A DNA stretch of 64,000 nucleotides, taken from Dysidea avara (taxonomy: Eukaryota; Porifera; Demospongiae; Dictyoceratida; Dysideidae). How positions within the stretch are numbered: the first letter of the stretch is position 1; the number at the start of each line of letters is the position of its first letter. Location of the stretch: assembly GCF_963678975.1 (NCBI RefSeq), contig NC_089281.1:9759277-9823276 (forward strand). Reading direction: 5' to 3'. Below, piece after piece: positions 5,420 through 51,830 of the stretch. A program made the position numbers and the translations under genes. The notes under the pieces are model-generated. The model saw nothing but the letters and a program-made list of their open reading frames with translations, was not told where the DNA came from and made no database searches.

Positions 5420-5531
5420 TAGTCTCATTTGGCTAGACTGCTTTTGTGTTGGGGTAGGAAAAAATCCCAACACCAGTGCCAAAAGAAAAGTGTGGTCTGG
5501 CCACGTGAGAAAAAAATGGTCTGGCCTTGAA
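5420..5531. mobile_element. Degenerate TAGTCTCG-family hairpin
   Basis: The left side reads TAGTCTCATTTGGCTAGAC and the right side GGTCTGGCCACGTGAGA, a decayed copy of the family end TAGTCTCGCGTGGCCAGACC. The middle contains GTTGGGGTAGG and an inverse GGGATT-type stretch. No target-site duplication is recognisable. Confidence 0.45.
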
Positions 5532-18929: not shown

Positions 18930-19690
18930 AAGGTGTGCAGGTATCCCTTTTGAGGAGTTCTGTTATACATAACTATGCAGTCACATATGCAACTTCTAAG
19001 TCCACTATAGTGGGATCCAACTTGATAAAGAAGATATTTCTTAAGAGATCATATATATACAACATTCACATGATATGTTTATGGTCACATGCATGGTGGT
19101 CAGATTTGTAATTTAAAGTCAACTTGTCTAATAAGGACCATTTTTGGATTTGCTAGAAAGGGTTGATGCTTTGGTGTTATCATAGATAATATATACCTCC
19201 GGACACTGTCTGGAGGTATATATTATCTATGGTGTTATACATTAATGTCCAATTAAATAAGTATAAATTAACTGCAGCACATCTATAGGTGGTCTTTCAA
19301 TACAGGTGGTCACTAATACAGGTTGCACTGTACCTAGACACCTTCACTTTGCAAGACAAACTTGTTGTTGTGAGTGGTTATTGGAGGTGTACACTCTGGC
19401 CATACAGCAATAATAGACTACAAATTCCACTGCATACCACACAGGGGCGGAGGAAGTAGTTGATATGAGGGGGGGCTGGGCTGACCCAGACTTATGGAAG
19501 TGATTACTACATTGTCTCTGGTTTGGTAAGGTGAGACAAAAAAAAGAAGAAAAGGTCACAACCAGCTGACAATAGCTGCCCACCTCACCAGCTATGCATT
19601 TATTGAACCATAATTAAGTAGATATCCCATAATTTAGGGATCACTGGAAAGGTTGATCAACAATCTTCCATCAGTGAAAGTTGTGTTTAA
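18930..19690 (-). repeat. Right arm of the 2.7-kb inverted repeat
   Basis: Reverse complement of 16966..17640, from GGTATCCCTTTTGAGGAGTT at the inner side to TCACTGGAAAGG...CTTCCATCAGTG at the outer side. It is interrupted by the MITE fragment at 19443..19612. A short self-complementary hairpin (GGAGGTATATATTATCTATG, about 19185..19232) lies within it. Confidence 0.75.
19443..19612. mobile_element. Truncated MITE carrying the shared core
   Basis: It starts with CAGGGGCGGAGGAAGTAG and carries the core block GGTCACAACCAGCTGACAAT and CCACCTCACCAGCTATGC. The other end is missing. It replaces the stretch corresponding to 17045..17226 of the opposite arm. Confidence 0.55.
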
Positions 19691-20325: not shown

Positions 20326-22981
20326 CTAATCAACTTCTTCCATTCGAGAAGCATCTTCATCATCGCCTTCAAGTGGAGGCATGTCCTCAGTGGTGGTAGT
20401 GGTTTCTTCAGTAGTAACCTCATCCTCATCAATACCAAGGCCGAGCTTGATCATACGATGGATCCTGCTGGCATGATTTTGTGGATCATCTAAGCTGAAG
20501 CCAGATGCCATAAGCGAGGTTTCATAAAGCAAAACAACTAAATCTTTGACTGATTTGTCATTCTTGTCGGCATCTGCTTTCTTGCGTAGTGTTTCCATTA
20601 TGGCGTGCTCAGGATTGATCTCCAAGTGTTTCTTTGCTGCCATGTACCCCATTGTGGAAGTATCTCTGAGCGCTTGTGCTTTCATGATTCTCTCCATATT
20701 GGCACTCCAACCATGTTGGCTTGTAACGATGCAGCAAGGTGATGTGACTAGCCGCTGAGAGACCACCACCTTTTCTATCTTCTTGTCCAGGATGTCTTTA
20801 ATTACCTTACACAAGTTCTCAAACTTTGCCTTCTGCTCTTCAAACCTTTTAAAAGCAAGTATAACAAGTAATAGACAATCACTACAATTATGTTTGAATC
20901 CCCCCACCCCCACAGTATAACAGTTGCACCATACCGTTTCTTTTCATCTTCATCTTCAGGGAGTTCAAGACCTTCCTTAGTAACACTAACAAGTGTTTTG
21001 CCATCATATTCCCGTAATTGCTGTGCACAGTACTCATCAATGGGATCAACCATGTATACAACTTCAAAACCACGCTTCCTCACACGCTCCACAAAAGCAG
21101 AGTTGGCCACGGAGTCTCTGCTTTCACCTGTAATATAGTAGATCTCCTTTTGATTCTCCTGCAGAAGGTAATAAAAGTTAAGGAAAGTTAGCTATCCATT
21201 TTATAATTTACCTTCATTCGTGTTACATAATCTTTCAGTGATGTCATTTCATCAGTGGTGGTGGACGTGTGATAGCGCAACAGATCAGCAAGTTTCTTCC
21301 TGTTCTGGCTATCTTCATGTATGCCAAGCTTCATGTTCTTTGAAAACTGCTCATAGAACTTCTTGAAGTTGTCCTTGTCTTCAGAAATTTCATTGAAAAG
21401 TTCCAAGCATTTTTTCACCAGATTCTTTCTGATTACTTTGAGCACCTTGCTTTGTTGAAGCATCTCACGGGAAATGTTGAGTGGCAGATCCTCAGAATCA
21501 ACGATTCCTTTGATGAAGTTAAGATATTCCGGAATGAGTTCTTCGCAATTCTCCATGATGAAGACACGGCGCACATACAACTTGATGTTGTTTTTCTGCT
21601 TGCGGTTTTCAAAGAGATCAAAAGGAGCTCTTTTTGGTACAAAAAGCAAAGCTCGAAATTCTAATTGACCCTCAACGGAAAAATGCTTTACTGCCAGATG
21701 GTCTTCCCAGTCATTGGTGAGCGATTTGTAGAATTCTCCATATTCTTCTGTGGTGATGTCATCTGGGTTGCGAGTCCACAGAGGCTTGGTCTTGTTTAGT
21801 TCCTCCATTTCAGAATATTTTTCCTTGATTGTTTTCTTTTTCTTCTTCTTGTCTTTGTCAGCTGCTTCATCATCGTCCTCGTCTAAAAGGATCACTGGAT
21901 GAAACCATAAAAACTACCAGTGACAAGACGTACCGATTTCTTGAACTTTTGGCTTGTCACCATCTTCATCGTCATCTTTCTTCTCGTCGTCTTTGTCATC
22001 GTCATCTTCATCGTCAGAAACATCCTTGTCACGTTCTTTTTGAACCTTGATCAACACAGTCTTAATTAACAACTGCTTTCTCAACAACATTAATATACCT
22101 GGAGTGAAATTGGGTACCCAATAAACTGACTGTGTTTCTTCACAACATCCTTGAGCTTTCTCTCTTCCAAATATTCATTCTGGTCTTCCTTCAGATATAA
22201 AATGATCTTAGTGCCTCGCCCTAACGGCTCATGCTTTTCATCTCGACGCACTGTGAAAGAGCCCCCAGCTGAAGACTCCCACAGGTATTGTTCATCATCA
22301 TTGTGCTATCAGGGAAAATAAAATGCTTTAAACAACACTTGACCACTTACTTTGCTGATCACTTCAACTCGTTCTGCAATTAAATATGCTGAGTAAAACC
22401 CAACACCAAACTGTCCAATCATGGATATGTCTGCTCCAGCCTGGAAAGTTTTGTTTTGGCATAACAGTAATGTACTTGGTATACGAAAAGTGCTGTACCT
22501 GCAATGCTTCCATGAATTGCCTAGTACCTGACTTGGCTATTGTACCAAGGTGGTTTACCATATCAGCCTTGGTCATTCCTACACCAGTATCAATCACTGT
22601 AATAGTGTTGTTGTCCTTGTTGGGAATGATCTTGATGCAGAGATCCTTTTCAGCATCTAATGCACTGGGGTTTGTCAAACTTTGGTAACGAATTTTGTCC
22701 AAGGCCTACAATTAAGGTGAACACAATATTCATTACGAAGCAAATACACTTACATCAGAAGAGTTGGATATCAATTCACGCAGGAAAATCTCCTTGTTTG
22801 AATAAAACGTGTTGATGATTAAGCTCATTAGCTGGGCTATTTCGGCTTGAAAAGCAAACGTTTCTACTTCGCTGTCGTCGTCTTCCATTTCGACGTCAAC
22901 ATTTTTAGAATCTACCGGAGGAGAATCTACCGGTGGAGAATCTTCAGCAGCAGGAGCAGCAGCATTATCTTCACTAGACAT
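20326..22981 (-). CDS. HSP90: Cytosolic heat shock protein 90
   Basis: ATP-dependent chaperone of the eukaryotic cytosol. Eight coding exons on the minus strand: 22981..22754, 22705..22499, 22440..22351, 22305..22099, 22045..21934, 21882..21212, 21158..20935, 20845..20326. All junctions are GT/AG and the predicted protein is about 752 residues. The N-terminal ATPase domain shows [10 protein letters not shown] (catalytic Glu about 69), DTGVGMT (from 115), GTIAKSGT (from 130) and [12 protein letters not shown] highly acidic/lysine-rich linker follows, then the middle domain with WTRNP and NISREMLQQ (Arg about 420, the ATPase arginine). The C-terminus ends MEEVD, which binds TPR co-chaperones and marks it as cytosolic. 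Odd points: an unusually long acidic N-terminal extension with repeated DSPPV, and seven introns of only 45 to 89 bp. Exon 6 could instead start at 21894, adding four residues; the shorter form is preferred because it keeps the linker charged. Confidence 0.97.
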
Positions 22982-25231: not shown

Positions 25232-26509
25232 ACATCAAACACATTGATGTCATGCATTCACAATGCAACAGTCAAAAGAGAGGGAAATCACAGTAATCAT
25301 ATACTGCACTGTGCTAAGCAGAGATGCCATGTACGTTTATCACCACTACTCTTGTCACTACTATGGCACATTCACTTTAAGGTAAGTAGGGCAGGTAATT
25401 CTGGACACTTAGCTTGTCCTCAGCAATGGAAGAATCCCACAATGGTTAATTGTATTACAACGTAATATTGTACAAGAAATGCACCATACTTGCAACCATA
25501 GCTACAGTTACTGTTACCCCGTCAATGGAACATGCTGTAGTTGTTTTAAGACCGGTACCCATACCGTTAGGCCAGACCACTTTTTTTTCTCTTTGTCACT
25601 GGGTAGGGGAGAAATGGTCTGTTTCAAATCCCCATTTGTCTTGACATGTCATGAGGTTACATCACAAGCACGCAGTATTAGTAACCCCGTGTGCTTAAAT
25701 TACATTACATTATGATAAAACCAGAAGACTTCAATCATTGGTAGATTCCGATACAATTTTAGACACCAACTGGATGGTTCAACTATTTCATTACAATGGA
25801 AAGGTCCACCAGGCTATACCATCAATGTCATTGTCTCATTCTCCCAAACTCATCACACCAGTAAAATTTCTACTCTAAGGGCTACTTTCCATCTAGAAAT
25901 GCACTCTAATTTTGTAATTGCATAAAATTTAATTTGTTTTGTAATTTCCCTTGCCATATCACGTGTGCTGTCTGCTCTGTAACAATAACGTACGTACCAT
26001 TGTGTCTGAGCATGGTCTGAGTAAGCACATTTCAACTATTCAATTAAAAATGGTATACTTGAATATTTACTGGTGACCCCGCCGCTGACCGCCCATTCCT
26101 GTAGAGTTCACCTGGTCAGCTAACTCCAAATAATGCCTTCATTTAGTAAACCTACGAAATACGAAATGTTGAGTTAAGTAGCCTTTATATCTCTATTAGC
26201 TAGCTATGAACTCACAAGAAGATGAAAAGAATCAACTACTCGCCTGGCTAGGCGCTTCGCTGTCATAAGGGTGCGCTCCAACGCGGATAGTTTGGATAAA
26301 AACCGGCGTTTCCAATCCCGGGTACGTAGTATATATAATCTATGACCAGACCCTCTCGCAGCTAGGCGCTTATAATTATTAATCGATAAGCGCCGCGCGA
26401 AGAGTGGGTCTGGCTACGCGAGATTATGATTATGATTAAATACGGGTAAAGGCAAAGCCTGTATACCCGATCAATGCGTTATACAAAAGTAAATCTTTAA
26501 AAAAAATAT

Positions 26510-26962: not shown

Positions 26963-27574
26963 TAGTCTCGCGTGGCCAGACCGCTTTATCTCCGTCACGG
27001 CGCTTATCGATTAGAGATTATAAGCGCCTACACCGAAAAAGTGTCTGGTCCAGAATCAATACGTATACTTGTTTTCACACCCCAAGCTAGAGCTCGGGGT
27101 GTTTAATTAACCTTCGTCATAAAACGTATACTTCCTTTTAACTTTCAAGCCATGTACGCACTGGAAATGCCATGAACGATTGCCGGTAGCTAGCGGTGAT
27201 GAGAGCCACCGGGGCTGGTTTTCTAAGGCTGAAAAGGACACGGGTTGATTCTTTGCTCAGTTCTCCTTTCGCCTTTTCGTTTTCACAAGGAATCGTTCCG
27301 TGACCTTTTCAACCGTAGAAAAACAGCCTCAGTGTCTCTCATCACTGCTACTGGAAATCGTTCATGGCATTTCCAGTGCGTACGTGGCTTGAAAGTTAAA
27401 AGGAAGTATACGTTTTATGACGAAGGTTAATTAAACACCCCGAGCTCTAGCTTGGGGTGTGAAAACAAGTTTACGTATTGATTCTGGACCAGACCCTTTT
27501 TGGGAGTAGGCGATTATAATCTCTAATCGATAAGTGCCGTGACGGAGAAAAAGAGGTCTGGCCACGCGAGACTA
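26963..27574. mobile_element. 612-bp palindromic element, perfect 9-bp TSD
   Basis: Begins TAGTCTCGCGTGGCCAGACC and ends with the inverse. It is flanked by GCTACCATA on both sides (26954..26962 and 27575..27583). The arms of about 230 bp are near-perfect inverses. Each contains a smaller hairpin, GGCGCTTATCGATT...ATAAGCGCC, and a GC-rich hairpin CACCCCAAGCTAGAGCTCGG. The 61-codon frame at 27245..27430 runs across loop and arm and is not a gene. Long TIRs with 9-bp duplications resemble Mutator-like elements. Confidence 0.85.
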
Positions 27575-29479: not shown

Positions 29480-31380
29480 TAATATACACGAAACATTGGA
29501 GAGATTACAAACTTCTCAAAAAACAGATGCAGAAAGAGTGTAGGAAGGCTTACAATGATTACATGCGCCAAATGATCTATGATCCATACCAAAGTGGTAG
29601 AAAGAAATAGTTTTTTCAGCATGTTAAATCTTTATGCAGAGACCCAGGAGGAATCCCCATGTTTGAAAAAGAAGGAAAATGTATTCAACAGATCTTGCTA
29701 AAGCTAATATACTGAATAAGTATTTTTATTCTGTGTTTACTCAAGATAATAATGCCACATTACCAGACATGGTTAATGCCCAGTACCCAGACATGCCCGC
29801 TATACAAGTAGACACTGCAGGTATTGCAAAGTTATTAAGTGAAATGGATCCTTATAAAGCAATGGGCCCAGATGGTATTCCACCCAAACTACTTAAGGAA
29901 TTGTCAAATGAGGTTGCTCCCTGTATTGAGCCTTATGTTCAGTGCTTCTCTAAAGCAAAGTGTGTTACCCAATGACTGGAAAACTGCTTTAGTAACCCCA
30001 GTATTTAAGAAGGGCAGTCGAAATGACCCTTGTAATTATTGTCCAATATCATAAACGAGTGTTTGTTGTAAATTGTTTGAACATCTTGTCTATTCAAATA
30101 TCATGTCTCACCTCGAAACGTTCAGTATTCTTTCAGAATGTCAGTACGGATTCCGTGGAAAATGTTCCGCCGAACTACAGCTACTACAAACTATTTACAA
30201 TTTTGCTCTAAATTTAAACCACAAGGTACAAACTGATGTCATATTGGATTTCTGTAAAGCCTTTGACAAGGTTTCACACCGATTTCTGTTACACAAGTTG
30301 TACCATTATGGTATTAGGGGATCCACTCTTCAGTGGATCTTAATGGCCGTAGTCAAAGAGTTGTATGTAATGATTTTATATCACACCCAGTGAATGTTAC
30401 TAGTGGTGTACCTCAAGGGACAGTGTTGGGTCCCTTATTGTTTCTGGTCTATATCAATGATTTACCAGAGTGTATATCATCATCCTGTGGTCTTTTTGCA
30501 GATGACTGTGTGCTATATAGACCAATAACCAATCAAATCGACCAAGAAACTCTTCAGCAAGACTTATATAATATACAGCTTTGGGCAAATAAGTGGTTAA
30601 TGATGTTAAACGTGAATCAATGTGAAGTTCTACACATTTCACTGAAGCAGATCATCAAGAAGTTGTACTTATTATATGATGAACCACTAAAGTGTGTAAA
30701 TGAAGCTAGATATTTGGGAGTAATGATTGACTCCAAGCTTACTTTCAACACACATGTAAATTTAGTATGTAAGAAAGCAAACAATACCTTGTCCTTCCTG
30801 AGAAGAAATTTGTCTTCATGCCAGCGTGAAGTGAAAGCTGAAGCTTACCTGATGTATGTGCGTCCCATACTGGAGTATGCTACTTGTGCCTGGGCCCCTC
30901 ACACCCAATGTAATATTGACAAGCTAGAAGCTGTTCAAAGGCGCGCAGCAAGATTTGTAATTGGAGACTTTCGCTCCACCAGCAGTGTAACACAAATGCT
31001 CACTACCCTGAAATGGGACAGTTAAATTATCGTCGAAATATGTTAAGGCTCCAAATGATGTACAAAATTATTCATCATATTGTGGACCTTACTCCGGCTG
31101 CCAGAATGTATCACTTTAAATAGAGGAATTACCCGGGGTCATGAGTACAAACTTACCCTGCCATTCACTAGAATTGACTCATATAAATTCAGCTTCTTTC
31201 CTTCCACTGCTATACTATGGAACAACTTGCCCCCAGAGACTGTTGAAGCTTCATCTCAGATCACCGTGTTTAACAACCTTCTTATAAATGAACTGTAAAA
31301 TTGTAATTAGTTAGCTGTATATATTTTGATTTGTACATTGCATTCATACTCGCTGTGCGAGGTCTTGCAATTATTATTAT
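29480..31380 (+). pseudogene. 5'-truncated CR1/Jockey-type LINE, copy 1
   Basis: A reverse transcriptase relic in the order of a non-LTR ORF2. The post-endonuclease linker is KKQMQKECRKAYNDY; the finger region has GPDGIPPKLLKEL; TAFD-type DFCKAFDKVSH and GVPQGTVLGPLL follow; the catalytic palm motif is FADDCVLY; the tail is LGVMIDSKLTF and YVRPILEYA. At least three frame changes separate the pieces (29679, 30073 and 30333 frames), so it is inactive. The 3' end reaches LWNNLPPETV and a (TTA)n tract at about 31365..31380, directly before the foldback at 31398. ORF1 and the endonuclease are missing. Confidence 0.9.
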
Positions 31381-31802
31381 ACAACCAAGTACTAAGATAG
31401 GGTCCACAACCGAAAAATCGATATCTTCAAATTAACTTACAAACTATAGTCATGTGTAGGGATAGGTCTAATCAAGAAAACACTAGAGTGGCAGCAAATT
31501 TCGTCCATCTCTTCACGTGAGACACATAGTGGCGCTTGCTTCCTATCCGCTGTTCCTTCTTTCAAACAACCAATTTCACCAAACTTTGAAGTAAAAAATT
31601 TAGCTACATCAATCAACGAAGACCAGGCTCAAGGACTATTACAGAAGAGGCCAGTTTCAACACTTAGACCCGCGCAACAGACGCGCGCCTGACTGGAACG
31701 CGAGAACCTTGGTACCGTGGTGAATAACGGTACCTGCTCAAGCTAGTTTCAAGTTATAGTCTTACACTTGTTTGTTTTTGCTCATTTTACCAGGCTCACC
31801 AA

Positions 31803-33182
31803 TTGGAAATGGCCAGTGAAATAGCCAAGACCAAACACCTAGCAAGCTCTCCAGCCAATAAGGAGGAAAAGAAGGCAAGAGGAGATCAGTGTATAGTTTG
31901 TTCTGAACCAGCTACTGCTGACATATTTGAGTGTCTATGGTGTGAGGGACATCAGCACGCAAGTTGTTCAAAGCTAAGTACTGATGAATGTAATGCTATA
32001 GCTAACATATCAACACCAAATATTGTATTCTTCTGTTCCTCTTGTATTCAAGTGGTCCCTGTTACTATGACAATCAAGTGCTTGTTGAATCTAGAATTAC
32101 AGCTGTCGAAACTTCCGTCACTGAGATTCAATGTTCTGAACGAAATCTTCATGAAACAGTGAAATCTGTTGAATCATAAATTGAGTCCTTTCAAAAATCA
32201 ATAAAGTTGTTACTAAATGAGTACACTACACAGTTATCAAAGGTCTCTACTTCTGTTAATGCTGTACCCCCTGAATCTGCAGAGCAAATTGCAGTGTCTT
32301 TACTTTCCGAGCAAAAAGAGAAAGAAAAGCGTCCGCTGAACATAATGATCCATAAGTTAGAAGAATCCACTGCAGATGATGGCCAATCTAGAAAGCAAGA
32401 TGACATCAAGAAATGTGTATCATTATTTCAGAATTACTTGGGAGCGAAAGTGGCTATTACAAATGCTTTCCGTTTAGGTAAAAAATCTAACTGACCACGT
32501 TTACTTAAACTAACCCTTAGCAGTATGGAGGAGAAAGCCTTAATACTAAGAAATAAATCTAAACTAAGATCTACCTCTCACCCAGAAGATGTCCGTAATG
32601 TATTCATCACCCCAGATAATTAGGCACCGGCCGATTATGCCAGCATAATTTAAAGCATAATAGGTGACCAAAAGCATCAAGCATAATGCCAGCATAATAG
32701 GGACGATGTTTGAAAAATTAATTAAATGCGCAATACGCACGCCTGAAAGAAAATAAATATTCACTGCCAATAGTATAATTAGTGTATTTCATATTTAAAA
32801 ACACGTAATATAACTTATTAAATCGTTTCTTTGTTGGTTATTCACACTTTACAGAAATAAGATCGAGATACTCTAATAGAGCAGTCACTTACTCTAATAG
32901 AGCAGTCAGGAAAGGCTGATATACTCTAATAAAACAGTCAGTTCTAGAGCATAATCTTGATTTTGAAAGCATAATTTTGAGCATAATAGGCTTAATTTTT
33001 GAGCAATGCTCAAAAGCATAATAGGTAAAATTTTGGGCATAATAGGCCGGTAGGCCTACCCAGATTTCACACCCATTGAACAGAAGAGGAACAAGGTCTT
33101 ACGGGAACAGTTAATTAATATGAACAAAACAGAGAACATCTACATGATAAAAATGGGGAGGATAGTGCGGAGGCAAACTTAG
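31803..33182 (+). pseudogene. LINE ORF1 with PHD-like zinc finger, broken
   Basis: The first part (31803..32162) has CIVC, then CLWC, HASC and CSSC at PHD-finger spacing, a feature of CR1-type ORF1 proteins. A frame change follows. The second part (32207..32494) has NIMIHKLEES and AFRLGKKS, the typical RNA-binding ORF1 core. The third part ends IVRRQT with its stop at 33180..33182. A DNA element (32618..33058) splits it; with that insert and one TSD copy disregarded, the reading frame on both sides agrees (TPD followed by FTPIEQKR). The encoded protein would bind the LINE RNA. Confidence 0.8.
32618..33058. mobile_element. 441-bp MITE inside LINE ORF1, 7-bp TSD
   Basis: Ends TAGGCACCGGCCGATTATGC and, reversed, TAGGCCTACCGGCCTATTAT. 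CCCAGAT is duplicated at 32611..32617 and 33059..33065. The interior is packed with copies of AGCATAAT and holds three copies of the TACTCTAATAGAGCAGTCA motif, the same motif found in the CAGGGGCGGA-type MITEs. Confidence 0.8.
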
Positions 33183-35989
33183 CTTCCCCCTGCACTGATA
33201 ATCAGTTACCTCTTAACCCTAGTGATCCTACTCCCAATGATTATCTTGATAATTCATTTAATCGCTCCCTTACCGTCTTATCTCTAAATTGTCACTCTCT
33301 CTTAGCCAAAAAGGAGTCCTTTCTTAACCTTATCTGTTTCCATACCCCTGACATTATTATAGGTTGTGAATCATGTCTCAAACCTGATGTTAACAACTGT
33401 GAAATATTTCCATCTAATTACAATGTACATCGGATTGACCGTGCTGATGGCTATGGAGGCGTTTTTATAGCATGCCATGATTCTCTTGCTTCCTGTAACA
33501 TACAGATAGAAACATCCTGTGAACTAGTGGCATGCCAGATACAACTTCCCAACCAGCCTCACTTAATTATCTGTTCACTATACTGACCTCCATCAAGTAA
33601 TGAAGCTTATTTAAATGAATGCTGCTACCAGCTGGAATCTATCAGACATAGCTATCCTGACTCAGCACTGTGGATTGCTGGAGATGTCAATCTCCCAGAT
33701 ATAGATTGGGTCAACAACACCATCAACAGTCATCAATACTCACTTAACCTAAACCAGATATTTCTAGATTTCCTGCAAGATAATGCTTTGTCTCAACTTG
33801 TCAATTATCCAACCAGAGGCTCAAAAATACTAGATGTTTTTATTACTGATAGACCTTTGTTAGTTGAATTTTGTAACACAATTGATGGTATTAGTGACCA
33901 TGAAGCTATCCTTGTGACATCTTATGTCCTTGCTCCGTTAGGACCTCCTATAGAAAGATCTATTTACCTATGGTCTCAAGCTAATTTTGATCATATAAGA
34001 CAAGAAATGCAATCTTTGTGTGATGAGTTCATCACCACCTACTTGTCCTCTACACCAGTAGATGTCCTATGGAATAATTTTCTTGTGATATGCAATGCTG
34101 GTCTGGCCATGGTTCCCACTAAGTCCACTTCCACTCAACCTAAGTAAACCTGGGTAACCAACAATGTCAAACGCTTAAGTAGGAATAAACAACGTGCCTA
34201 CAATCGCGCACGTACTTCTGACTCCCCTTTAGACTGGTCCAAATATCATGACCTTAAAAGACAATGCCAAAGAGAATGTCGTCAAGCGTTTAATAATTAC
34301 ATCTCTTCCCTGATAGACCCTAATAGCAGCAAAGTTACCAAAAGATTATGGTCATTCATCAAAAGTGAAAAACAGGATAATACTGGAATTGGCCCTCTTA
34401 TCCACCAAGGAACTACGTTTACTGATTCTAAGGACAAAGCTAATGTGCTGGCTGATTATTTTTCATCTGTTTTCACATGCAACAACACTTCCCATTTACC
34501 TGAAGTAAATGACATCCCTTTGCCTAGCATATCACCATTAACAGTCCATGTTGAAGGAGTGGCCCAATTACTAACTAACATCCAACCACACAAAGCTAGT
34601 GGACCAGACAATTTACCTGCTTGTTTCCTCAAGGAAGTTGCTTACGAGATTGCTCCTGTTTTATCAATTGTATTCCAAGTATCATTAGACCAAGATCATT
34701 TACCAAATATTTGGCGAACTGCTGCAGTCGTTCCGATATATAAAAAAGGAAGTAAAACTGAGCCAAGCAATTACAGACCAGTATCCCTTACTTGTATTTG
34801 TTCCAAAATTCTAGAACACATTGTTTATTCTGCCATATCCAAACACTTAGAACACCACCAAACACTTTGTGATGAACAGCATGGATTTCGTAAGAGAAGA
34901 AGTTGTGAAACTCAATTGATTTCCACAGTGAATGATTTTGCCGAATGTCTGAATCAAAGGGGACAATGCAACATCCTTCTACTAGATTTCAGTAAGGCTT
35001 TTGATAAAGTTTCTCACTCGCTCCTGTATCACAAGCTAGCACATTACAGAGTACAAGGATCACTACTATTTTGGCTAAAATCATTTCTGAGTCACAGATC
35101 ACAATATGTTATTCTAGATAACCACAAAAGGGATACCACCCAGGTCCTTTCTGGTGTACCTCAAGGCACGGTTCTTGCCCCTCTATTGTTTTTGATTTAT
35201 ATTAACGACCTACCTTTTTCCATCCACAATAACATCAAACTGTATGCAGATGACGTATTGTTGTATTCTCGAATAACATCAATTGCTGACTGCTTAAGCT
35301 TACAGCAGGACTTAGACCTACTTGCTCAATGGGCCGACAGATGGAAGATGACATTCAATATCCTGAAATGTGAGTTCCTGAGAGTAACAAACCAACGCAA
35401 TCCTATCTTGCACACGTATTATATTGAAAATTTTCCCATTAAGGAAGTTCCATCTGCCAAATATCTAGGGGTCACCATCGACAACAAGCTTACCTTCAAT
35501 GACCATATCTAAACAATCACCGATAAAGCTAACCAAATCAATGTCTTTATTTACAGAAACCTGCGCCACTGTCCAAGCACTGTAAAATGTAACTGCTACA
35601 GAAGTATGGTCAGGCCAGTGCTTGAATATGCATCATCTGTATGGGATCCCCATACCTTAAATAATATTAATAGAATTGAAGCAGTACAGAGAAGAGCGGC
35701 CAGATTTTTCCTAAATGAGTTTTCAAGTTACTCTAGTGTTACTAACATGCTAAGCACACTTAACTTACCTCCTTTACAACAAAGAAGAGAGAGAGCTAAA
35801 CTTATAATGATGCATAAAATTATTAATGATCTTATTGATATCCCCAAAGAGTACTTTACCCCTAATGATTCACAATTAAGAAAAGGATACTACAGGCAAC
35901 TGACGACAAACATTGACTCATATAAATTTTCCTTTTCCCCCTCTGCAATTAAACTTTGGAACCCTCCCCCCCCCCCCCCTCCTATATAA
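33120..35989 (+). pseudogene. LINE ORF2: endonuclease plus reverse transcriptase
   Basis: One frame runs the whole way with only three stops (33584, 34145, 35510), each replacing a residue in otherwise continuous sequence. The APE-type endonuclease shows SLNCHSL, GDVNLPDIDW and SDHEAI. The reverse transcriptase shows GPDNLPACFL, LLDFSKAFDKVSH, GVPQGTVLAPLLF and the palm motif YADDVLLYS. Then come KYLGVTIDNKLTF and the C-terminal YASSVWDPHTL and RRAARFF. The end, normally WN-LPP, is altered by a C run (about 35967..35980) into a string of prolines. It is inactive as it stands. Confidence 0.92.
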
Positions 35990-36560
35990 TTAATTCCCCT
36001 TCCCTGGATAATTTTTGTAACAACTTAAGTAATTATATCTGTACGTTATAATCATTTGTGATTTCTGCACAGTAAAAACAAATAATAATAATAGTGAAAA
36101 TAACACAAAATACCTTGAATTCGATCGATTTTTCGCTGTCGTAATGTGCAGTGTTATTCTTTTGGGGCAAAACTCTCTCTCAAGCTTTGAGAGATTGTCC
36201 ACTCTTACTATGGAGTATAGGAAGTTTAATATAATTAATTAATATTTGGTAGTGACGTCGTGCGCATCGCCGATCGGCGAAAAAAAAGACGTTTCGTGAT
36301 CTGGAGCACAGCAGACTTGCAGGAAATACTGCAACATTTACTGCAGTGATCACCTCCAAGTCAAGTACCTGTGTGCAGAATATGGTGTGGATTGAAGTTT
36401 GCTAACCATCTGGCTGAGATCAGCGTCGTCAAATTTAGTAAAAATTCCTCCGCGATCCAACAAATATTGCAGTCTCGTGTACACAAGTACCTTTAAGTGT
36501 GTTGAATTATGGAAATGATTGCTCAGAACAAGTATAAACTTCTAGTGAAGGCTAGATTAC

Positions 36561-38349
36561 GTACACTTTAAGCAATATAACAGCATGCTAAATGCGATTT
36601 GTATTGCCAAAACCACCCTCTTGTAACTAATATCTAATTTTCGAAAAAATGTGGAATATACTTGACAACTACTCTGAGTACAGTTAAATAATCATTTTGT
36701 GATTGTTAGTTTAAAACTTCAGTAGTGACATAATGTATAAAAATCATTTTATGACCATTCTATAATTACATCTGACTGCTCAATTGGAGAGTTATAGTTA
36801 CATTGCTTTGGTGTAAACAGACCTATATAGTTTAATGCAGGCATATAGCTGTATACTGCATGCTTGCTACAGTAAAACTACTGTGCCTTTTTGAAAATAT
36901 CTTCTTTCTCATACTCAACAGGTGGTATAGTCTAGACATGCACTAGTATCTGCATTTGCATGATAATATGCAATGTACTATATTGAATATGTGCATGCTG
37001 AGCCCACTTATGCATGGGAGCAATATTATCAATATTATAGTAGCTATCAAAAGCAAATTTGCTCCAATTCTATAGTTGATGGTAATTAAATTAATGCAAG
37101 AAGTTCGTGAAATGCAGAAATATACTTACTAATCATATTTGCAACAAACAGTGGAAAGTTCAATGTGCTCAGCATTCACCACAAGCCATTAACACAGCTG
37201 AAATCCTTAAGATATTGAGTACTTGATTCTCTTCAGAACTGACCACATAATCATGCACTACATAATATGTATACAAGGACCATCCCTATAAATGAATCAT
37301 GAGTGACATATCTTCAATGCTTACAATATACACTGTATAGAGCCATTCGTATTACAAAGTATTGAGAATGTACATAATTATACTCTTTACACATGCAACT
37401 ACTGACATATAAATTTTAAATTAACCTCCAACTTCTAACTAGATCATCGTGTGCTGTGTAATGTATTACACTGCTATGATAGCAAACTTTGCCTACATTT
37501 AATCCATCCAGGACTGTGTGTAACACATGCTGTAAAGACATGCAGTTTTGGGTATACCTGCATGTTAATTTGCAATCTACAAAGCACCAAGAAGTACTCT
37601 TGCTCATCTGTTTCTTCACAGTGGAATTAATTCACTGTTTTCAGTAACTTGTATATACTTCTTTTGCATCTTAAACTTTTCTAAAAGTTTCAGTGTATCT
37701 TAAGATTGTATTGACAATTACGATCAAAATTTCTTCCAAATCACAAATAACTAAACTTCATTTTTTGGAGATTTTGTGTTATGGAAGTAATAGCTACTAT
37801 GATTTTAATATCTTGCATAGGATGTGATAATAGCTAGTAGACATGCATGATTGAGACTGAATAAGTTGATACTTTATAGTGCAAAATTATAGCTATACCA
37901 GGAAATATCACAGCTTTGTATGATAGTTCTCCCGAGTTCTCCATGCTGATGTGAATTCAAGGCATGTAAATTTTTTCCTGGTAAGCATACCACCAAACCT
38001 TGCATGCTACTGCATCTGAGTATCACATACAAGTAGATGACCGGATAAGCTCTGCATGATTTAGCTATCAAAAAGTGCTACAGTATATGGTAACCTAGCT
38101 GCATGTATACATATAATATGTATGTAGCTATATAGTTATATAGATCTATATAGCCATGCACACAAGACCTCTGGACTCCATCCTTGCTACAGAAAAGATC
38201 ATCTTACTGCATGTGCTCACAGAGATTTATCATTATATCAAGCCAATGATATTATGTGAGTGCCGTAAATTTTTTATTACGCCGGAGAGTTTTTGTTTTG
38301 CACAATAAATTGCATTAGCTATATTATCGGCTAAGTGTAAAATTTGCTG
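36561..38349. other. Loop of the foldback; no gene recognised
   Basis: About 1.8 kb of AT-rich DNA with only short frames (37416..37619 and 37874..38071 on the minus strand) and no recognised motif. Confidence 0.4.
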
Positions 38350-38930
38350 TCAGTAATAAAGCCTTCGCTGTAAGTTTATACTTGTTCTGAGCAATCATTT
38401 CCATAATTCAACACACTTACAGGTGCTTATGTGCATGAGACTGCAGTATTTGTTGGATCGCGGAGGAATTTTTACTAAATTTGGCGACGCGGGTCTCAGC
38501 CAGATGGTCAATAAACTTCAATCCACACCATATTCTGCACACAGGTACTTGACTTGGAGGTGATCACTGCAGTAAATGTTGCAGCATTTCCTGCAAGTCT
38601 GCTGTGCTCCAGATCACGAAACGTCTTTTTTTTCGCCGATCAGCGATGCGCGTGACGTCACTACCAAATATTAATTAATTATATTGAACTTCCATAAGAG
38701 TGGACAATCTCTCAAAGCTTGAGAGAGAGTTTTGGCCCAAAAGAATAACACTGCAAATTACAAGGGCGAAAAATCGATCGAATTCAAGGTGTTTTGTGTT
38801 ATTTTTACTAGAAGAGATGAACGAAATTTGCTGCCACTCTAGTGTTTTCTTGATTAGACCTACCCCTACACATGACTATAGTTTGTAAGTTAATTTGAAG
38901 ATATCGATTTTTCGATTTGCGGACCCTAAC

Positions 38931-38971
38931 TAGTCTGGCGTAGCCAGAAAAGGTCTGGCTACGCCAGACTA
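38931..38971. mobile_element. 41-bp mobile hairpin, perfect 9-bp TSD
   Basis: TAGTCTGGCGTAGCCAGA, a 5-bp spacer AAAGG, and TCTGGCTACGCCAGACTA: two perfect 18-bp inverted repeats and nothing else. It is flanked by GACCCTAAC on both sides (38922..38930 and 38972..38980). It inserted exactly at the outer end of the 31398..38928 foldback. Confidence 0.85.
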
Positions 38972-39203
38972 GACCCTAACTAAGAATAATATGAAACGCG
39001 GTTAAAATTATGTCATAAATAAATAAATAATAAATAATGTTCTCGAAAACTACGAGGTCTAGAGACATGAACTAACCGGGGATAGATTCGCCTGTGAATG
39101 AAGGCACAAACGTATAATCGTCGCTCCGGTTTGTGCTGATGAATTGACCATACGTGTAATTCTATATAACACCCATTACCACACCCTTGCTTAATATTTA
39201 CAG

Positions 39204-39514
39204 ATTGCGCGAGGAGAAGATTAGTGATGTCCGTGCAGGAGAGCCAGACGCCACTTTACGTGTAAAGAAGAAGATTACAAGTAACTTTTTATGTTTGCAA
39301 CATCTCAAGTCTCCATGCCAGCTGCCAGTGGATTCATTCACGTAAATAAACAATACAAGAAAGCTTTAAAACGTATGCCACGCTCTTTACAATACAGTTA
39401 CATATAAAATACAAGTAAACAATTTTGTCCTGTGCAGTTGGCATGGCGAACTTTGGTGTCAGGCAATTCGATACGCAGTTGATCTTTTTTGTCTTCACCT
39501 GGCGTAGCTACTAG
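39204..39514 (+). CDS. Possible terminal exon pair of an unidentified gene
   Basis: A good acceptor (TTAATATTTACAG) opens 39204..39280, encoding LREEKISDVRAGEPD then ATLRVKKKIT, and ends at a GTAACT donor. A strong acceptor (TTTTGTCCTGTGCAG) opens 39438, and the frame continues in phase for 24 codons (GMANFGVRQFDTQLI) to a stop at 39512. The phase agreement and splice sites make a real gene end plausible, but no protein family is recognised and no upstream exon is certain. Confidence 0.25.
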
Positions 39515-39629
39515 GCTCTGGCTGGCTTGGCTGTCTTCCTTTATCTGGCTTGCATACTCCTACAGTATTGTGTAGCTATCTCCTGCAAGTTGTGTATGCA
39601 TAATTATAGTGTGTCACCCATCACTGTGC

Positions 39630-39771
39630 TAGTCTCCAAATGACCGATGTTATTCAATTAACGTCCCCAGCGTCTGGGGACGGCTCAGAAGTAAACAGCT
39701 ATTGGAGTTGCACCAGACCCTTTTTTCCCCACCCAATACATGGGAAAAAGCGGTCTGGCTACGCGAGACTA
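39630..39771. mobile_element. 142-bp TAGTCTC-family element, perfect 9-bp TSD
   Basis: Starts TAGTCTCCAAATGACC and ends GGTCTGGCTACGCGAGACTA. TCACTGTGC flanks it on both sides (39621..39629 and 39772..39780). The right half is a hairpin (CCAGACCCTTTTTTCCCC against GGGAAAAAGCGGTCTGG). The left end is worn but keeps TAGTCTC. Confidence 0.8.
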
Positions 39772-40154
39772 TCACTGTGCCATTGTTACTCTACTGATGA
39801 ACCCTATGTAGCTCTAGTTGATGTTGATATACTGTGCTGTATATTGGCTAATAATTTTTATCTGGTGATGTTGCCTATAATATATTGCTGCATACAATAC
39901 TGCAATAATGTATAGTTCTCTCCTGTATGTTTTGTACACATATACTTTGTACACATCACTGTGCCATTACCACACCAATGATGTACTAGGACATAGCTAC
40001 TGGTGGCCTTTAGTTACGATGCCACTATTGTGTTATATCTGTCACTGCTGTGACATATTGAGATGATTTGGGTATCGTGCCTTCACCACCTAATAGCCTC
40101 ACCGGGGGGGCTGTCACATTGGTGTATGTACTTGGTTGTATGTGACGCGGTCCT

Positions 40155-41270
40155 AGTAATAATAATAAAATAAAATAAAAAAACTTCACTGCAAAGACTG
40201 AATATGCCGGAGAATACAACATGCGCATGGCATGGTAGCCCCATTCAAAATGGCGGCCGAAAAGTTAGTGTGGTTTTGGAAAGAGTCTATTGAAGAACTT
40301 TCTACAACAGAGGTAGGTAAACTGTTCCACTCATTAATCACTCTGTTCATAAAATAATTAGATCTGCATAACAATCTTGAATGTTGCTTGAACAATTTAA
40401 ACTGGTGTCCCCTGGTAGTAGTAGTAGTAGTGGAGTAGGTGTATAGATTAGTAAAGTCAGAGCTGAAGTAGTTGTTAAGAATTTTGTATAGAAAAATTAA
40501 ATCACCCCTCTGGCGTCTATACAACAGTGATGGTAAGGATAGTATTGACAGCCTCTCAGTATAGGATTTGTCATGTAGTGATGGGAGGAGACGGGTAGCT
40601 CGACGTTGTACCTATTCAACCTTTTTTCTGATCAAGGGTAAATAGTGGTCCCCTAATGGCATTACCATATTCCAAGATGGGTCGAACTAGTGTGGTAAAC
40701 AACTTAAACAACATACTCGAGTCAAGATATTCAAAGGATTTCTTGATCATGCCAAGTATTCGATTAGCTTTGGTTGTAACTTTAGCGGTATGGTCATGAA
40801 ACTTAAGCTTGTCATCAAAGAGAATTCCGACATCATTGTGGGATGTAACTGGGTCAATTGGAGTTTCATCAAGATAATAGAAGCCATGATGGTGAGCTGG
40901 GCCAAAATGGAAATGTTTACATTTGGAGATGTTAAACTTCAATTGCCAGAGTTGTGACCAGCTGTAAAGGCAATTTAAGTCATTCTGTAATGTAACGTAG
41001 TCTTCTTCGTTTCTTATCACACGGAAAATCTTTGTATCATCTGCAAACATGAACACAGGGCTAGACACAATTGATGGAATGTCATTAACAAACATAGTGA
41101 AAAGTAAAGAGCCTAACACAGATCCTTGAGGGACACCACTGGAGACTGGAGAGAAACGAGACTTATATCCATTCAATACAACTTGCTGTTTTCTGTTAGA
41201 TAAGAAATTCTTAATCCATTCTAAGAGATTGCCATTGCCATATGGACGTATAGTCCAAAGGTACATGTTG
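40155..41270 (-). pseudogene. 5'-truncated LINE, copy 3
   Basis: The minus-strand reverse transcriptase starts in the palm region. It shows WIKNFLSNRKQQVV, SGVPQGSVLGSLL, the catalytic FMFADDTKIF, then GILFDDKLKFHDH and TLVRPILEYGNA. A frame change near 40616 separates this from the C-terminal part (VINEWNSLPTSVV), which contains a six-threonine run from a (GTA)n microsatellite. It ends with (ATT)n-like sequence near 40155..40175. The GVPQGSVLGSLLF block and FADDTK differ from copies 1 and 2, so it is a different lineage in the same broad group. Inactive. Confidence 0.9.
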
Positions 41271-41546
41271 CGTTAGTATGGACTAATGGTCCATATGAAC
41301 GCTAGATTAGTGTACGGTAGGGGGATACGGAATTGTTGGGGTACCGGTATACTAAGCTTTTTTACAGCGCAACGTAGCCTAGATCAGGAGCGAGATCAGG
41401 AGAGGTATGGTCCCCAGTTGATTTATTCTTGTGTAAGTAGCTACGTGTTTTGTACTCGGTTTTGTACAAGGTTTTGTAAGTGATACGGGTTATTGTAAGC
41501 ACACCAAGGGCATGAAGGTAATACGTTCCTGTATCACCTACCCGTT

Positions 41547-41989
41547 TAGTCTCGCGTAGCCAGACCCTTTTCTTTTGTGTGGGGGCGGGAAAGAAATGGG
41601 TCTGGTGAACATAGTATAGCATCGTCGTTGGGCTATCCCGAGATTGTGGGGATTCTACTGCGCAGTTTCCTGATTGTTTGTGGGTGCGAATGACGTGTTT
41701 TGTTAACCGTTGTGTCATTTGCGTCCTGTTGCCATAGATATAAAGCGTGATCTGCATCATTTGCGTTCTATTACCATATTACTGCTTTTATATCTATGGC
41801 AACAGGATGCAAATGGTGCAATGGTTAGCAAAACACGTCATTCGCACCCACAAACAATCCGGAAGCTGCGCAGTAGAATCCTCACAATCTCGGGATAGGC
41901 CAACGACAATGCTATACTATGTTCACCAGACCCTTTTCTTTCCCCGCCCCAACACAAAAGAAAGAAAAGGGCCTGGTTATGTGAGACTA
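41547..41989. mobile_element. 443-bp palindromic TAGTCTCG-family element
   Basis: Starts TAGTCTCGCGTAGCCAGACC; the right end is CCTGGTTATGTGAGACTA. Arms of about 190 bp pair around a 55-bp centre; matching pairs include GGTGAACATAGTATAGCAT and AATGACGTGTTTTG. The 9-bp flanks CTACCCGTT and CTACCTGTG agree at seven positions. Confidence 0.75.
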
Positions 41990-42125
41990 CTACCTGTGGC
42001 CAGACCGCTTTTTCTCAGCACGGCGCTTATCGATTAGAATTATAAGTGCCTTTTTCGAGCAGGCACTTATAATTTTAATCGATAAGCGCCATGCTGAGAA
42101 AAAGCAGTCTGGCCACGCGAGACTA
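41990..42125. mobile_element. Hairpin element of the TAGTCTCG family
   Basis: GGCCAGACCGCTTTTTCTC, GGCGCTTATCGATTAGAATT and ATAAGTGCC form one arm. The other arm is the near-perfect inverse, ending GGCCACGCGAGACTA. It lies directly beside 41547..41989. The left end is worn (TACTACCTGTGGCCAG). Confidence 0.75.
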
Positions 42126-48290: not shown

Positions 48291-48769
48291 GGATAACACA
48301 TTTTTGTTGGTCACAAATGACCAGATTTGCAAAAATGGGTTTGCAAATGCATCCGATTGAGAAACAACAACTTAGTGTTCAACTTGATTATCAATCTGAA
48401 ATTTTCTCCACCTACTAAGTGATGCTGGTGCGCACTACTGATCAAATTTCAAGTCAATACCAGTTTCCAGTCTGAAGTTATGAGTTGTCAAAGTTGGTAA
48501 ATTGGATATGTGTGGAAGATACACTTTCCCGAATCCAGTCACATATGGCTCAATACTAATTGGCCATAAAGTTTTTTCCCCAAGGTGGATTTTAGAGGAT
48601 TTTGGATATGTTATTCTATGAAAAATTTGCTTTCTAATGGAGTGTTGTCCAGTACTGCCGTAGAAAATCCCTTGTCATCCATGGCTGTCATAGATAGTTA
48701 AGCTTAACAAGTTTTACATACATAAATATTATTAGATCATCGAGGAGACCTCTTGTCGAAGTAACTAAT

Positions 48770-49745
48770 GTATCCACCATGGATCACCATTGTCCAGGGG
48801 ACCCCCTTGTCAGAGTATCCAGGGATGACATAGTTACTACGGTAATCCATGTATTCACCATGGATCACCATTGTCCAGGGGACCCCATTGTCAGAGTATC
48901 CACGGATGACATAGTTACTACGGTTATCCATGTATCCACCATGGATCACCATTGTCCAGGGGACCCCCTTGTCAGAGTATCCACGGATGACATAGTTACT
49001 ACGGTTATCCATGTGTCCACCATGGATCACCATTGTCCAGGGGACCCCCTTGTCAGAGTATCCACGGATGACAAAGTTACTACGTTTATCCATGTGTCCA
49101 CCATGGATCACCATTGTCCAGGGGACCCCCTTGTCAGAGTATCCACGGATGACATAGTTACTACAGTTATCCATGTATCCACCATGGATCACCATTGTCC
49201 AGGGGACCCCCTTGTCAGAGTATCCACGGATGACATAGTTACTATGGTTATCCATGTATCCACCATGGATCACCATTGTCCAGGGGACCCCCTTGTCAGA
49301 GTATCCACGGATGACATAGTTACTACGGTTATCCATGTATCCACCATGGATCACCATTGTCCAGGGGACCCCCTTGTCAGAGTATCCAGGGATGACATAG
49401 TTACTATGGTTATCCATGTATCCACCATGGATCACCATTGTCCAGGGGACCCCCTTGTCAGATTATCTGCAGATGACCATGTATCCACCATGGAGCACCA
49501 TTGTCCAGGGGACCCCCTTGTCAGAGTATCCGCGGATGACAGAGTTACTATGGTTATCCATGTATCTACCATGGATCACCATACCCCCTTGTCAGAGTAT
49601 CCGCAGATGACAAAGTTACTATGGTTATCCATGTGTCCACCATTGTCCAAGAGACCCCCTTGTCAGAGTATCCACGGATGACAAAGTTACTATGGTTATC
49701 CATGCATCCACCATGGATCACCATTGTTCAGGGAACCCCCTTGTC
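48770..49745 (+). repeat. 81-bp minisatellite array, ~12 units
   Basis: Each unit contains ATCCACCATGGATCACCATT, GTCCAGGGGACCCCCTTGTC and AGAGTATCCACGGATGACAT. The period is 81 bp in the regular part, with shortened units near 49470..49500 and 49560..49660. Because 81 is a multiple of three, several frames stay open on both strands. A 300-codon plus frame (27-residue unit MDHHCPGDPLVRVSTDD...) and a 233-codon minus frame result from this and are not taken as genes. Confidence 0.95.
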
Positions 49746-50257
49746 TAAGTATTAGTTTTAGTACAATGCTTTGTGCCTGCTTTTAAAAGTGCACATACCA
49801 AGTAGCAGTTTCTGTATGTTCAGAATCAAAATTCATATGTTCTAATAGCAACGTTTTGCACATAAATATAGTAGATGGTTCTTAATTATGTTGTAAAATG
49901 TAGAGACCACATATATACGTATGTATATTCCAACAAACAAAACTGGCTTAAATATTCTGATTGTGTTTATCGCATAAGTACATCATGTAAAACAAAAATC
50001 TTTCCCGACACATGTGTTGTGATATCCTTGAATATCGTGACAACCAGGAAAAAATCTGTTCACAAATCTCTGTATCCACCTATTGTAAGTGCAAACGCGG
50101 TAATAGAATGCTATGATAAAGTTATACACTGATCATAATCTGATCACTAGTGTAAAGATTTAAATGAATAAATAGGAAGAACATAATGCATGCCTATGTA
50201 TAGTCAGTATGCAAATACAGTAAGTGAATAGGAGACTAGGAGATGATCATTCAGTTA

Positions 50258-50575
50258 CAGGGGCGGATCCAGACTTTTAAAAAGGGGGGTTCCACTTTGA
50301 AATTGCAACTTCAGCCTAGCTGTATAAGTTGAAGACCAAAAAAAAAAAAAAAAAAAGTCATCACCTGCTGACAATTGCTTCCACCTCACCAACTATATTT
50401 CCTTCCTTATTTATAACTAGATATATAGCTTGCTACACTGCTCCTCAAAAGACCACTGTGACTGCTCTATTAGAGTATCTCAATTTGACTGCTCTATTAG
50501 AGTATCTCGAGTGAGAAGGCTTTTAAAAAGGGGGGTTCCATGGAACCCTTGGAACCCCCCCTGGATCTGCCCCTG
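50258..50575. mobile_element. MITE with CAGGGGCGGATCC ends, 5-bp TSD
   Basis: Left end CAGGGGCGGATCCAG and reversed right end CAGGGGCAGATCCAG, flanked by AGTTA (50253..50257 and 50576..50580). It holds an A run (50338..50356), the core block CACCTGCTGACAATTGCT and two copies of CTCTATTAGAG. The near-perfect inverse GGGGGGTTCC...GGAACCCCCC pairs lie just inside the ends. Confidence 0.85.
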
Positions 50576-50894
50576 AGTTATCTTACTTGTTTGCATTATC
50601 AAACCCCATTTTGAAATGTTTAGTTACACTACTTTTATAAAGTACGTATATGTGAGATGTATATGTTGTCATATTAAAATGGTATTTAATTTGACTATAT
50701 AGAGGGCCCAGTACCTCAACCAAGAGTACTGAAAGATCTAGAGCAAACACACCTGAAGGAGAAGTAGATAAGTCTCCTAAAATGCCCAGGCTGGAACTTT
50801 AGCAACGTTACTGCACATATAGCACATCAGCTGATTCTAGCAATGTATTCACACAAGTAAAGCACAATTGCATTAATTCTGTTCCAATTATCAC

Positions 50895-51830
50895 CCTGGT
50901 GGATAAATAGTAACTTTGTCATCTATGGATCCTCTGACAAGGGGGACCCCTAGACAATGATGATCCATGGTGGATACAATAGTAACTTTGTCATCTGCGG
51001 ATACTCTGACAAGGGGTATGGTGCTCCATGGTGGATACATGGATAACCATAGTAACTTTGTCATCCGCAGATACTCTGACAAGGGGGTTCCCTGGACAAT
51101 GGTGATCCATGGTGGATACATGGATAACCATAGTAACTTTGTCATCTGCGGATACTCTGACAAGGGGGTATGGTGATCCATGGTGGATACATGGATAACC
51201 ATAGTAACTCTGTCATCCGTGGATACTCTGACAAGGGGGTCCCCTGGACAATGGTGCTCCATGGTGGATACATGGTCATCCGCAGATACTTTGACTAGGG
51301 GGTCCCCTGGACAATGGTGATCCATGGTGGATACATGGATAACCATAGTAACTATGTCATCCGTGGATACTCTGACAAGGGGGTTCCCTGGACAATGGTG
51401 ATCCATGGTGGATACATGGATAACCATAGTAACTTTGTCATCTGTGGATACTCTGACAAGGGGGTCCCCTGGACAATGGTGATCCATGGTGGATACATGG
51501 ATAACCATAGTAACTATGTCATCCGCAGATACTGACAAAGGGGTCCCCTGGACAATGGTGATCCATGGTGGATACATGGATAACCATAGTAACTATGTCA
51601 TCCATGGATACTCTGACAAGGGGGTCCTCTGGACAATGGTGATCCATGGTGGATACATGGATAACCATAGTAACTTTGTCATCCGCAGATACTCTGACAA
51701 GGGGGTCCCTGGACAATGGTGCTCCATGGTGGATACATGGATAACCATAGTAACTTTGTCATCCGCGGATACTCTAACAAGGGGGTATGGTGATCCATGG
51801 TGGATACATGGATAACCATAGTAATGTAAC
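50895..51830 (-). repeat. 81-bp minisatellite array in inverse orientation, ~11 units
   Basis: The same unit as 48770..49745 on the opposite strand, with matching truncated units (for example near 51000..51020 and 51270..51290) in roughly mirrored order. The open frames at 50891..51577 (minus) and 51486..51815 (plus) are by-products. Confidence 0.95.

Follow-up and report, generated by a model that had tools for sequence, protein, structure and literature searches.

The window analysed here, a 64,000-nucleotide stretch of the Dysidea avara genome, contains an HSP90 family gene on the minus strand (20326-21913, at least two separate exon-like ORFs), reverse-transcriptase element fragments (30318-41272 and 57391-57855, with RVT_1 in the ORFs at 30318, 34148, 40619 and 57391) and a large inverted minisatellite-like array (48698-51592), whose arms at 49219-49643 and 51109-51533 are 97% complementary and in which several frames are open. 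Between two older repeats lies the subject of this report, a 41-bp palindromic unit with the following parts and neighbours.

38353..38930, + strand: older left repeat, with paralogous pieces at 36092-36560 (-) and 31392-31514 (-)
38922..38930, + strand: left copy of the 9-bp target duplication, GACCCTAAC, identical to 38972-38980
38931..38948, + strand: left 18-bp arm, the first 13 nt of which (TAGTCTGGCGTAG) are the tip common to the long elements L023-L025
38949..38953, + strand: 5-bp spacer AAAGG, compared with L016-L020
38954..38971, + strand: right 18-bp arm, the reverse complement of the left arm
38972..38980, + strand: right copy of the 9-bp target duplication, in which GACCCTA is left-flank repeat sequence although it borders the right-flank repeat
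38979..39170, + strand: older high-copy right repeat, beginning ACTAAGAATAAT

The 41-bp unit, its flanks and its relatives in the window

The initial annotation described two perfect 18-bp inverted repeats, a 5-bp spacer and a perfect 9-bp direct repeat, all of which proved exact on re-measurement: positions 38931-38971 read TAGTCTGGCGTAGCCAGA-AAAGG-TCTGGCTACGCCAGACTA with perfectly inverted arms, and GACCCTAAC is found without a mismatch at 38922-38930 and again at 38972-38980. Folded as single-stranded DNA, the unit reaches -22 kcal/mol, where shuffled sequences average -3.84 (z -11.8), and each 18-bp end forms a small hairpin of its own (TAG-TCTGGC-GTA-GCCAGA). We read the AAAGG spacer as the probable remnant of a subterminal palindrome, which the relatives have as CCAGACCTTTTA..TAAAAGGTCTGG. 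Of the pairs that 12-bp inverted seeds up to 2 kb apart form in the window, just two lie between exact 9-bp repeats, the 41-bp unit and a 612-bp relative. The motif TAGTCTSGCGT, with at most one mismatch, matches the window eight times against 0.49 expected, while a loose scan of the window for family ends (up to 5 edits) returned 6 ends, where each of 20 random sequences gave 0-6, and is uninformative alone. The target 9-mer at 38922-38930 includes the telomere-like CCCTAA; since most other targets that were read are without it, no target preference is claimed.

The source of the 9-bp repeat can be traced from the two flanks. The paralogue at 31392-31514 (-), the one paralogue used for the left flank, continues through GGACCCTA without an insert. 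Scoring of 40 of the 2692 candidate places for the right-flank repeat gave matches that, the window itself aside, begin at about query position 229 and never take in the 41-bp unit; that the unit is simply part of this repeat is ruled out for the scored copies. In the eight alignments displayed at the boundary (7 of 19 other loci, one strand only), the right repeat is preceded by AACCAAGT and never by GACCCTA. The GACCCTA to the right of the unit thus belongs to the left-hand repeat, and the 9-bp direct repeat is therefore a target duplication. The GACCCTA between the unit and the right repeat is best read as copied left-hand sequence, as a target duplication predicts.

Five relatives of the unit lie in the same window.

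26336..26426, + strand: 91-bp palindromic relative with TAATCT ends and no clear duplication
26963..27574, + strand: 612-bp relative with C at position 7, tip and subterminal palindrome at both ends, and exact 9-bp duplication GCTACCATA
39630..39771, + strand: 142-bp relative with a degenerate left tip and, by eye, exact 9-bp duplication TCACTGTGC
41547..41989, + strand: 443-bp relative with flanking 9-mers CTACCCGTT and CTACCTGTG (2 mismatches)
41996..42125, + strand: palindromic relative adjoining the 443-bp relative, with an incomplete left tip

Six ends of the C-type window relatives follow the same plan, a tip and then a palindrome. The initial annotation had the ends of the 41-bp unit matching those of larger family members nearby, which needs correcting at position 7: the larger window relatives have C there (TAGTCTCGCG), whereas both ends of the 41-bp unit have G, and long elements of the G form are found elsewhere in the genome. 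The element at 41547 is also the counterpart empty site of a 38-bp unit (L207), which lies within another copy of the 41547-type relative; in the window the site is present once, without the unit, and 8 of 9 letters agree. Near position 1501 (L013), a single 27-nt tip stands by eye between two TCAAAATAC copies, a one-ended remnant.

Short two-ended units across the genome

In the assembly searched (550.8 Mb in 108 contigs, window included), the 18-mer end with up to 3 mismatches occurs at 5455 places, 25 of them exact, against 71 for the reversed control. Exact 18-bp ends pair at 41 bp in the window and at 54 (L018), 55 (L017), 56 (L019) and 58 bp (L016), and also at 5896 bp (L024) and 6745 bp (L023). 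Elsewhere, the 18-mer has six matches in a genome contig collection, and one viral-contig match, of which 351 bases were read, lacks a second end over that length. The genome-wide search for closely paired ends that the initial annotation had proposed was productive, yielding hundreds of units with reversed controls of 0-1. The pattern TAGTCTGG-N20..50-CCAGACTA (36-66 bp) was found at 200 places against 0 in the reversed control, its shorter version TAGTCTGG-N0..19-CCAGACTA (16-35 bp) at 22 against 1, and the C form TAGTCTCG...CGAGACTA with N20..50 (36-66 bp) at 141 against 1, each place being counted once because the pattern is its own reverse complement and shows on both strands. The length tallies thereby cover 16-66 bp (36-66 bp only for the C form), and the places listed (50 of 200, 22 of 22 and 50 of 141, respectively) are not all good palindromes.

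We read the flanks of 55 short loci, namely the 50 listed G-form places, the four exact-end pairs and the window. An exact adjoining 9-bp repeat is present at 23 of the 55 and one with a single mismatch at 9, as against at most one locus per length for exact repeats of 4-8 or 10-13 bp. When flanks were deliberately mispaired, 17 of 2000 pairs matched with two or fewer mismatches, in part owing to loci that have flanks in common. Once such loci are merged, 47 independent sites remain, and here the tabulation of 9-bp duplications called for by the initial annotation gives a divided answer: 20 sites are exact, 7 have one mismatch and 20 have two or more. Exact 9-bp duplications flank L017-L021, with one mismatch at L016. 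Among the 16-35-bp units, 20 of 22 were fetched, with 8 exact duplications and 1 with one mismatch; 20 C-form units chosen from the 50 listed, mostly the shortest and a repeated 47-bp type, gave 5 exact duplications and 4 that differ by one letter; within this set, the 47-bp copies (L200-L204, five in number) have shared flanks and count as one, and L218 and L219 are treated likewise. Longer units of 98-174 bp have exact 9-bp repeats in L091, L092, L094 and L095 (L094 and L095 being near-identical with the same 9-mer) and one mismatch in L093. In viral contigs, where the short-unit pattern occurs in 55 stretches (58 places by script), no place with two full flanks comes within 2 mismatches of a 9-bp repeat.

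The 41-bp unit is not the smallest of its kind. It had been described as, if real, among the shortest transposed units one could have; units of 21, 22, 26, 27 and 28 bp with exact 9-bp duplications exist. The shortest two-tip units with such duplications among the sets read are L165 (C12:18431751-18431771, 21 bp, duplication GGATTTCAC) and L159 (C7:25198086-25198107, 22 bp, duplication GTATCTGAT). The 21-28-bp units with exact duplications each differ in sequence, and four of them (L152, L155, L156 and L168) consist by eye of a 19-21-nt stretch from one end, closing with CCCC, plus 6-8 nt of the other tip. Several units of 26-28 bp look, again by eye, like microhomology joins, and the 21-28-bp units with duplications may be remnants. 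The 16-bp sequence TAGTCTGGCCAGACTA is listed at four places on C12; the two that were fetched share flanks without a duplication and are therefore not counted as insertions.

Some short units sit at fixed positions within larger repeats, an arrangement that the initial annotation had named as speaking against a mobile element. This is the case at L049/053/080, at L050/055/066/088, at L056/057/058 and in the 47-bp group L200-L204, but not, as far as the 40 scored of 2692 candidate places show, for the 41-bp unit, which is absent from the other scored copies of the right-flank repeat. A separate case is presented by L078 (C4:2098719, 56 bp) and L195 (C6:28992760, 55 bp), which belong to different subfamilies and yet occupy identical positions in two copies of a larger repeat, each flanked by the 9-mer CCTAGCTGT; the coincidence calls for either a strong preference for the site or an exchange by way of the tips that the units share. 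At L021 and L022 (C1:52403021 and C1:52452476), the same 58-bp unit occurs in opposite orientations at places about 49 kb from each other that have their flanks in common, and it may be part of a larger inverted duplication.

Long coding relatives and family assignment

Three long elements have the ends of the short units. L023 (6745 bp), L024 (5896 bp) and L025 (6756 bp) are each flanked by an exact 9-bp duplication, and their terminal repeats, palindrome included, measure about 40, 72 and 69 bp, respectively. Their 13-nt tip is TAGTCTGGCGTAG, with the palindrome CCAGACCTTTTA..TAAAAGGTCTGG just inside, the exceptions being one letter changed beside the tip in L025 and an incomplete left palindrome in L023. 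Tip and palindrome also occur in the whole 98-174-bp units L091-L095, and the micro-units consist of tip, palindrome and tip; L020 has, by eye, half-palindromes of both end types.

All three long elements encode DUF6589. In L024, the one element scanned for helicase domains, the ORFs match DUF6589 (E 1.5e-10 and 2.7e-33) together with DEAD and Helicase_C (Pfam); it also matches RecQ-family models with scores below the NCBIfam cut-offs, probably because its ORF is split. DUF6589-type sequence has at least 129 matches in the genome, including the interiors of L023 and L025, a figure that comes from 112 of 209 candidates scored, includes several pieces from some copies and is not a gene count. 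The diversity of DUF6589 may account for the many tip subfamilies. A structure model of the DUF6589 protein was poor (mean pLDDT 58).

Duplication length and helicase content together point to the AcademH lineage, which reportedly goes back to Kojima in 2020. AcademH elements have 9- or 10-bp target duplications and AcademX elements 3- or 4-bp ones, a difference tied to helicase versus nuclease (PMC10045372). In the family described here, the repeats are of 9 bp at 23 of the 55 short loci and at L023-L025, a 10-bp repeat (by eye) at L199 fits the AcademH range of 9-10 bp, and L024 encodes a superfamily II helicase. We describe the family as AcademH-like in the sense of resembling AcademH in duplication length and helicase. 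By the usual traits of MITEs, ends and 9-bp duplication are common to the short L016-L021 and the coding L023-L025, and multiple dispersed copies exist for a 55-bp unit (ten sites), the 41-bp unit being at one place.

No description of such tiny two-ended units was found in the limited literature collection searched. Bacterial REP and REPIN sequences are RAYT-linked, REPINs combining two units; they have other ends, and we know of no 9-bp duplication for them. The likeness lies in their being very short palindromic units (PMC3116915, PMC3733652). Generic eukaryotic MITEs, non-autonomous and with inverted ends and a target duplication, are sought by finder programs at 50-800 bp, a range below which the 36-49-bp units lie, and these units are without separate internal sequence (PMC6245586). 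MADE1, the human MITE of the mariner Hsmar1, is likewise little more than its terminal repeats (two of 37 bp with 6 bp between, 80 bp in all), but it belongs to the mariner family, is about twice as long and has no subterminal palindrome described in the available text of PMC1784062. Coral CMITEs are short animal MITEs of about 100 bp, but are piggyBac-like, duplicate TTAA and have a conserved interior of 75 bases (PMC2872659). AcademH, a lineage of the Academ DNA transposons, shares the helicase and the 9-bp duplication (10-bp at L199), whereas tip-plus-palindrome ends and 36-66-bp derivatives are not mentioned for it in the accessible portions of PMC10045372 and PMC10799480.

How the short units arose and whether they move

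The best evidence that units without an interior spread comes from the 55-bp unit. Its core, with up to 3 mismatches, occurs at 122 places in the genome (control 0), and among the places listed ten have the outer letters on both arms, all ten being 55 bp long. Their flanks are mutually unrelated; the 9-bp duplication is exact at 7 sites, off by one letter at another and by two at a further one, and missing at L191. Nine of the ten share one centre, a few substitutions aside. One junction at ten unrelated sites points to amplification of the short unit itself and leaves some small room for its repeated independent birth from long elements. In the long relatives L198 (388 bp) and L199 (386 bp), the outer and inner arms of the palindrome differ in letters: the 55-bp unit has the tip-side letters AGCCGACC on both arms, while the inner arm of the long relatives is ACCAGACC. 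Compared by eye with L198 and L199, the 55-bp unit runs from the left tip as far as GACCC and then continues as the palindrome of the right end, a structure that would fit two ends joined at the shared GACCC and not a simple fold-back of one end.

A route from long element to micro-unit can be proposed. Since the palindrome reads the same at both ends, left and right ends share it as a direct repeat; a deletion could join the two ends inside their palindromes, by single-strand annealing, microhomology joining or abortive gap repair, and leave tip, palindrome and tip, about 55 bp without an interior. Such units would then be mobilised, duplicating 9 bp on insertion, by DUF6589/RecQ-helicase proteins acting in trans and needing only the tip of each end. 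The 41-bp copy would be a 54-58-bp unit of the TAGTCTGGCGTAG-CCAGACC subfamily minus 13-17 bp of the palindrome centre, trimmed before or, more probably, after insertion. We consider it probable, from comparison of these sequences, that the 41-bp unit is such a trimmed non-autonomous micro-element of the AcademH-like family, of tip-palindrome-tip structure and moved in trans by DUF6589/RecQ-helicase proteins. This reading builds on features seen directly, namely the tips, the palindromes, the 9-bp duplications, the dispersed 55-bp copies and the long relatives with these genes. Counting against it are the occurrence of the 41-bp unit at one place only, the 20 of 47 sites with two or more mismatches in their 9+9 flanks, the weakly matching arms of some listed units, the tiny units that ride inside larger repeats, and the shared site of L078 and L195, which fits simple independent insertion poorly.

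The alternative that fares best, and that we rate as slightly favoured by the odds, overlaps the last step of this explanation, so that the two are not shares of one whole. It supposes that a long or ~55-bp insertion was reduced in place, by excision and end joining or by deletion of its palindrome centre, to a pair of tips flanked by the two target copies, and that the 41-bp form never moved. The central 33 bp of the unit, with up to 3 mismatches, find only themselves in the genome, and 13-17 bp of palindrome centre are missing relative to L016-L019 (54-58 bp). The original description of a mobile unit that is nothing but two ends is supported as to a two-ended mobile-element unit with a 9-bp target duplication and as to the dispersal of interior-less units (convincingly so at 55 bp) but, the 41-bp unit being single-copy, not as to movement at 41 bp. 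An in-place origin is further consistent with the 21-28-bp units, which all differ and of which four look by eye like end-to-tip joins, with L013, whose tip between two TCAAAATAC copies suggests that in-place deletions that keep the duplication occur, and with the end-sequence footprints that Stowaway/mariner elements are known to leave (PMC4561436). It covers the smallest units and not the 55-bp unit at ten unrelated sites. Because in-place shrinkage seems to occur (L013 and the 26-28-bp joins), we favour trimming of the unit, most probably once it was inserted, over its transposition at 41 bp; we think it unlikely that the transposase mobilises tips separated by next to nothing, in units of 41 bp or as small as 21-28 bp.

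A birth by fold-back, in which one end pairs with itself through its palindrome and so serves as primer for a copy of its own tip, would yield near-perfect palindromes such as L017-L019 from that end only. It should, however, keep the inner letters on one arm, whereas the 55-bp subfamily has AGCCGACC on both, with ACCAGACC inside in the long relatives, and L020 and L021 combine two different end types; we regard it as improbable. Membership of the Mutator-like (MULE) family is more doubtful still. A 9-bp target duplication is typical of MULEs and is present here, but it is common to AcademH and hence does not discriminate; L024, with exactly the same ends, carries DUF6589 and RecQ-type helicase ORFs, no MULE domain was found in its seven ORFs (Pfam, E 0.1), and the 10-bp repeat seen by eye at L199 suits the 9-10 bp of AcademH (PMC10045372). 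A palindrome arising by chance, or a cruciform or replication/transcription signal unrelated to transposition, would account for the strong folding but has a negligible probability given the hundreds of same-tip units, reversed controls of 0-1, 9-bp duplications and viral-contig matches with two full flanks of which none comes within 2 mismatches of such a repeat; chance origin is rejected on the window seed scan, the genome pattern controls and the viral-contig comparison.

If a 36-60-bp unit can be mobilised, a transposase can pair ends that lie closer together than the persistence length of DNA, about 150 bp, a point of interest for the assembly of transposition complexes. If units of 41 or 21-28 bp did move, they would rank with the shortest transposed DNA of any nuclear genome, and end pairing would need no looped interior, the palindrome perhaps being handled as a hairpin or cruciform. 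A simple rule of MITE birth is also suggested, in which a palindrome in each end allows one deletion to make a complete two-ended unit. Many such units lie below or near the 50-bp floor of MITE finders (PMC6245586) and would therefore be missed in annotation. The tiny units fold into strong hairpins and can serve as natural insertion markers. The window holds a second tiny palindrome of unrelated sequence at 19179-19233 (27-bp arms with 2 mismatches, ~49-55 bp), flanked by GTGTTAT (7 bp, directly adjoining) or, with an offset of one base, by the 8 bp GGTGTTAT, and folding at -21.1 kcal/mol.
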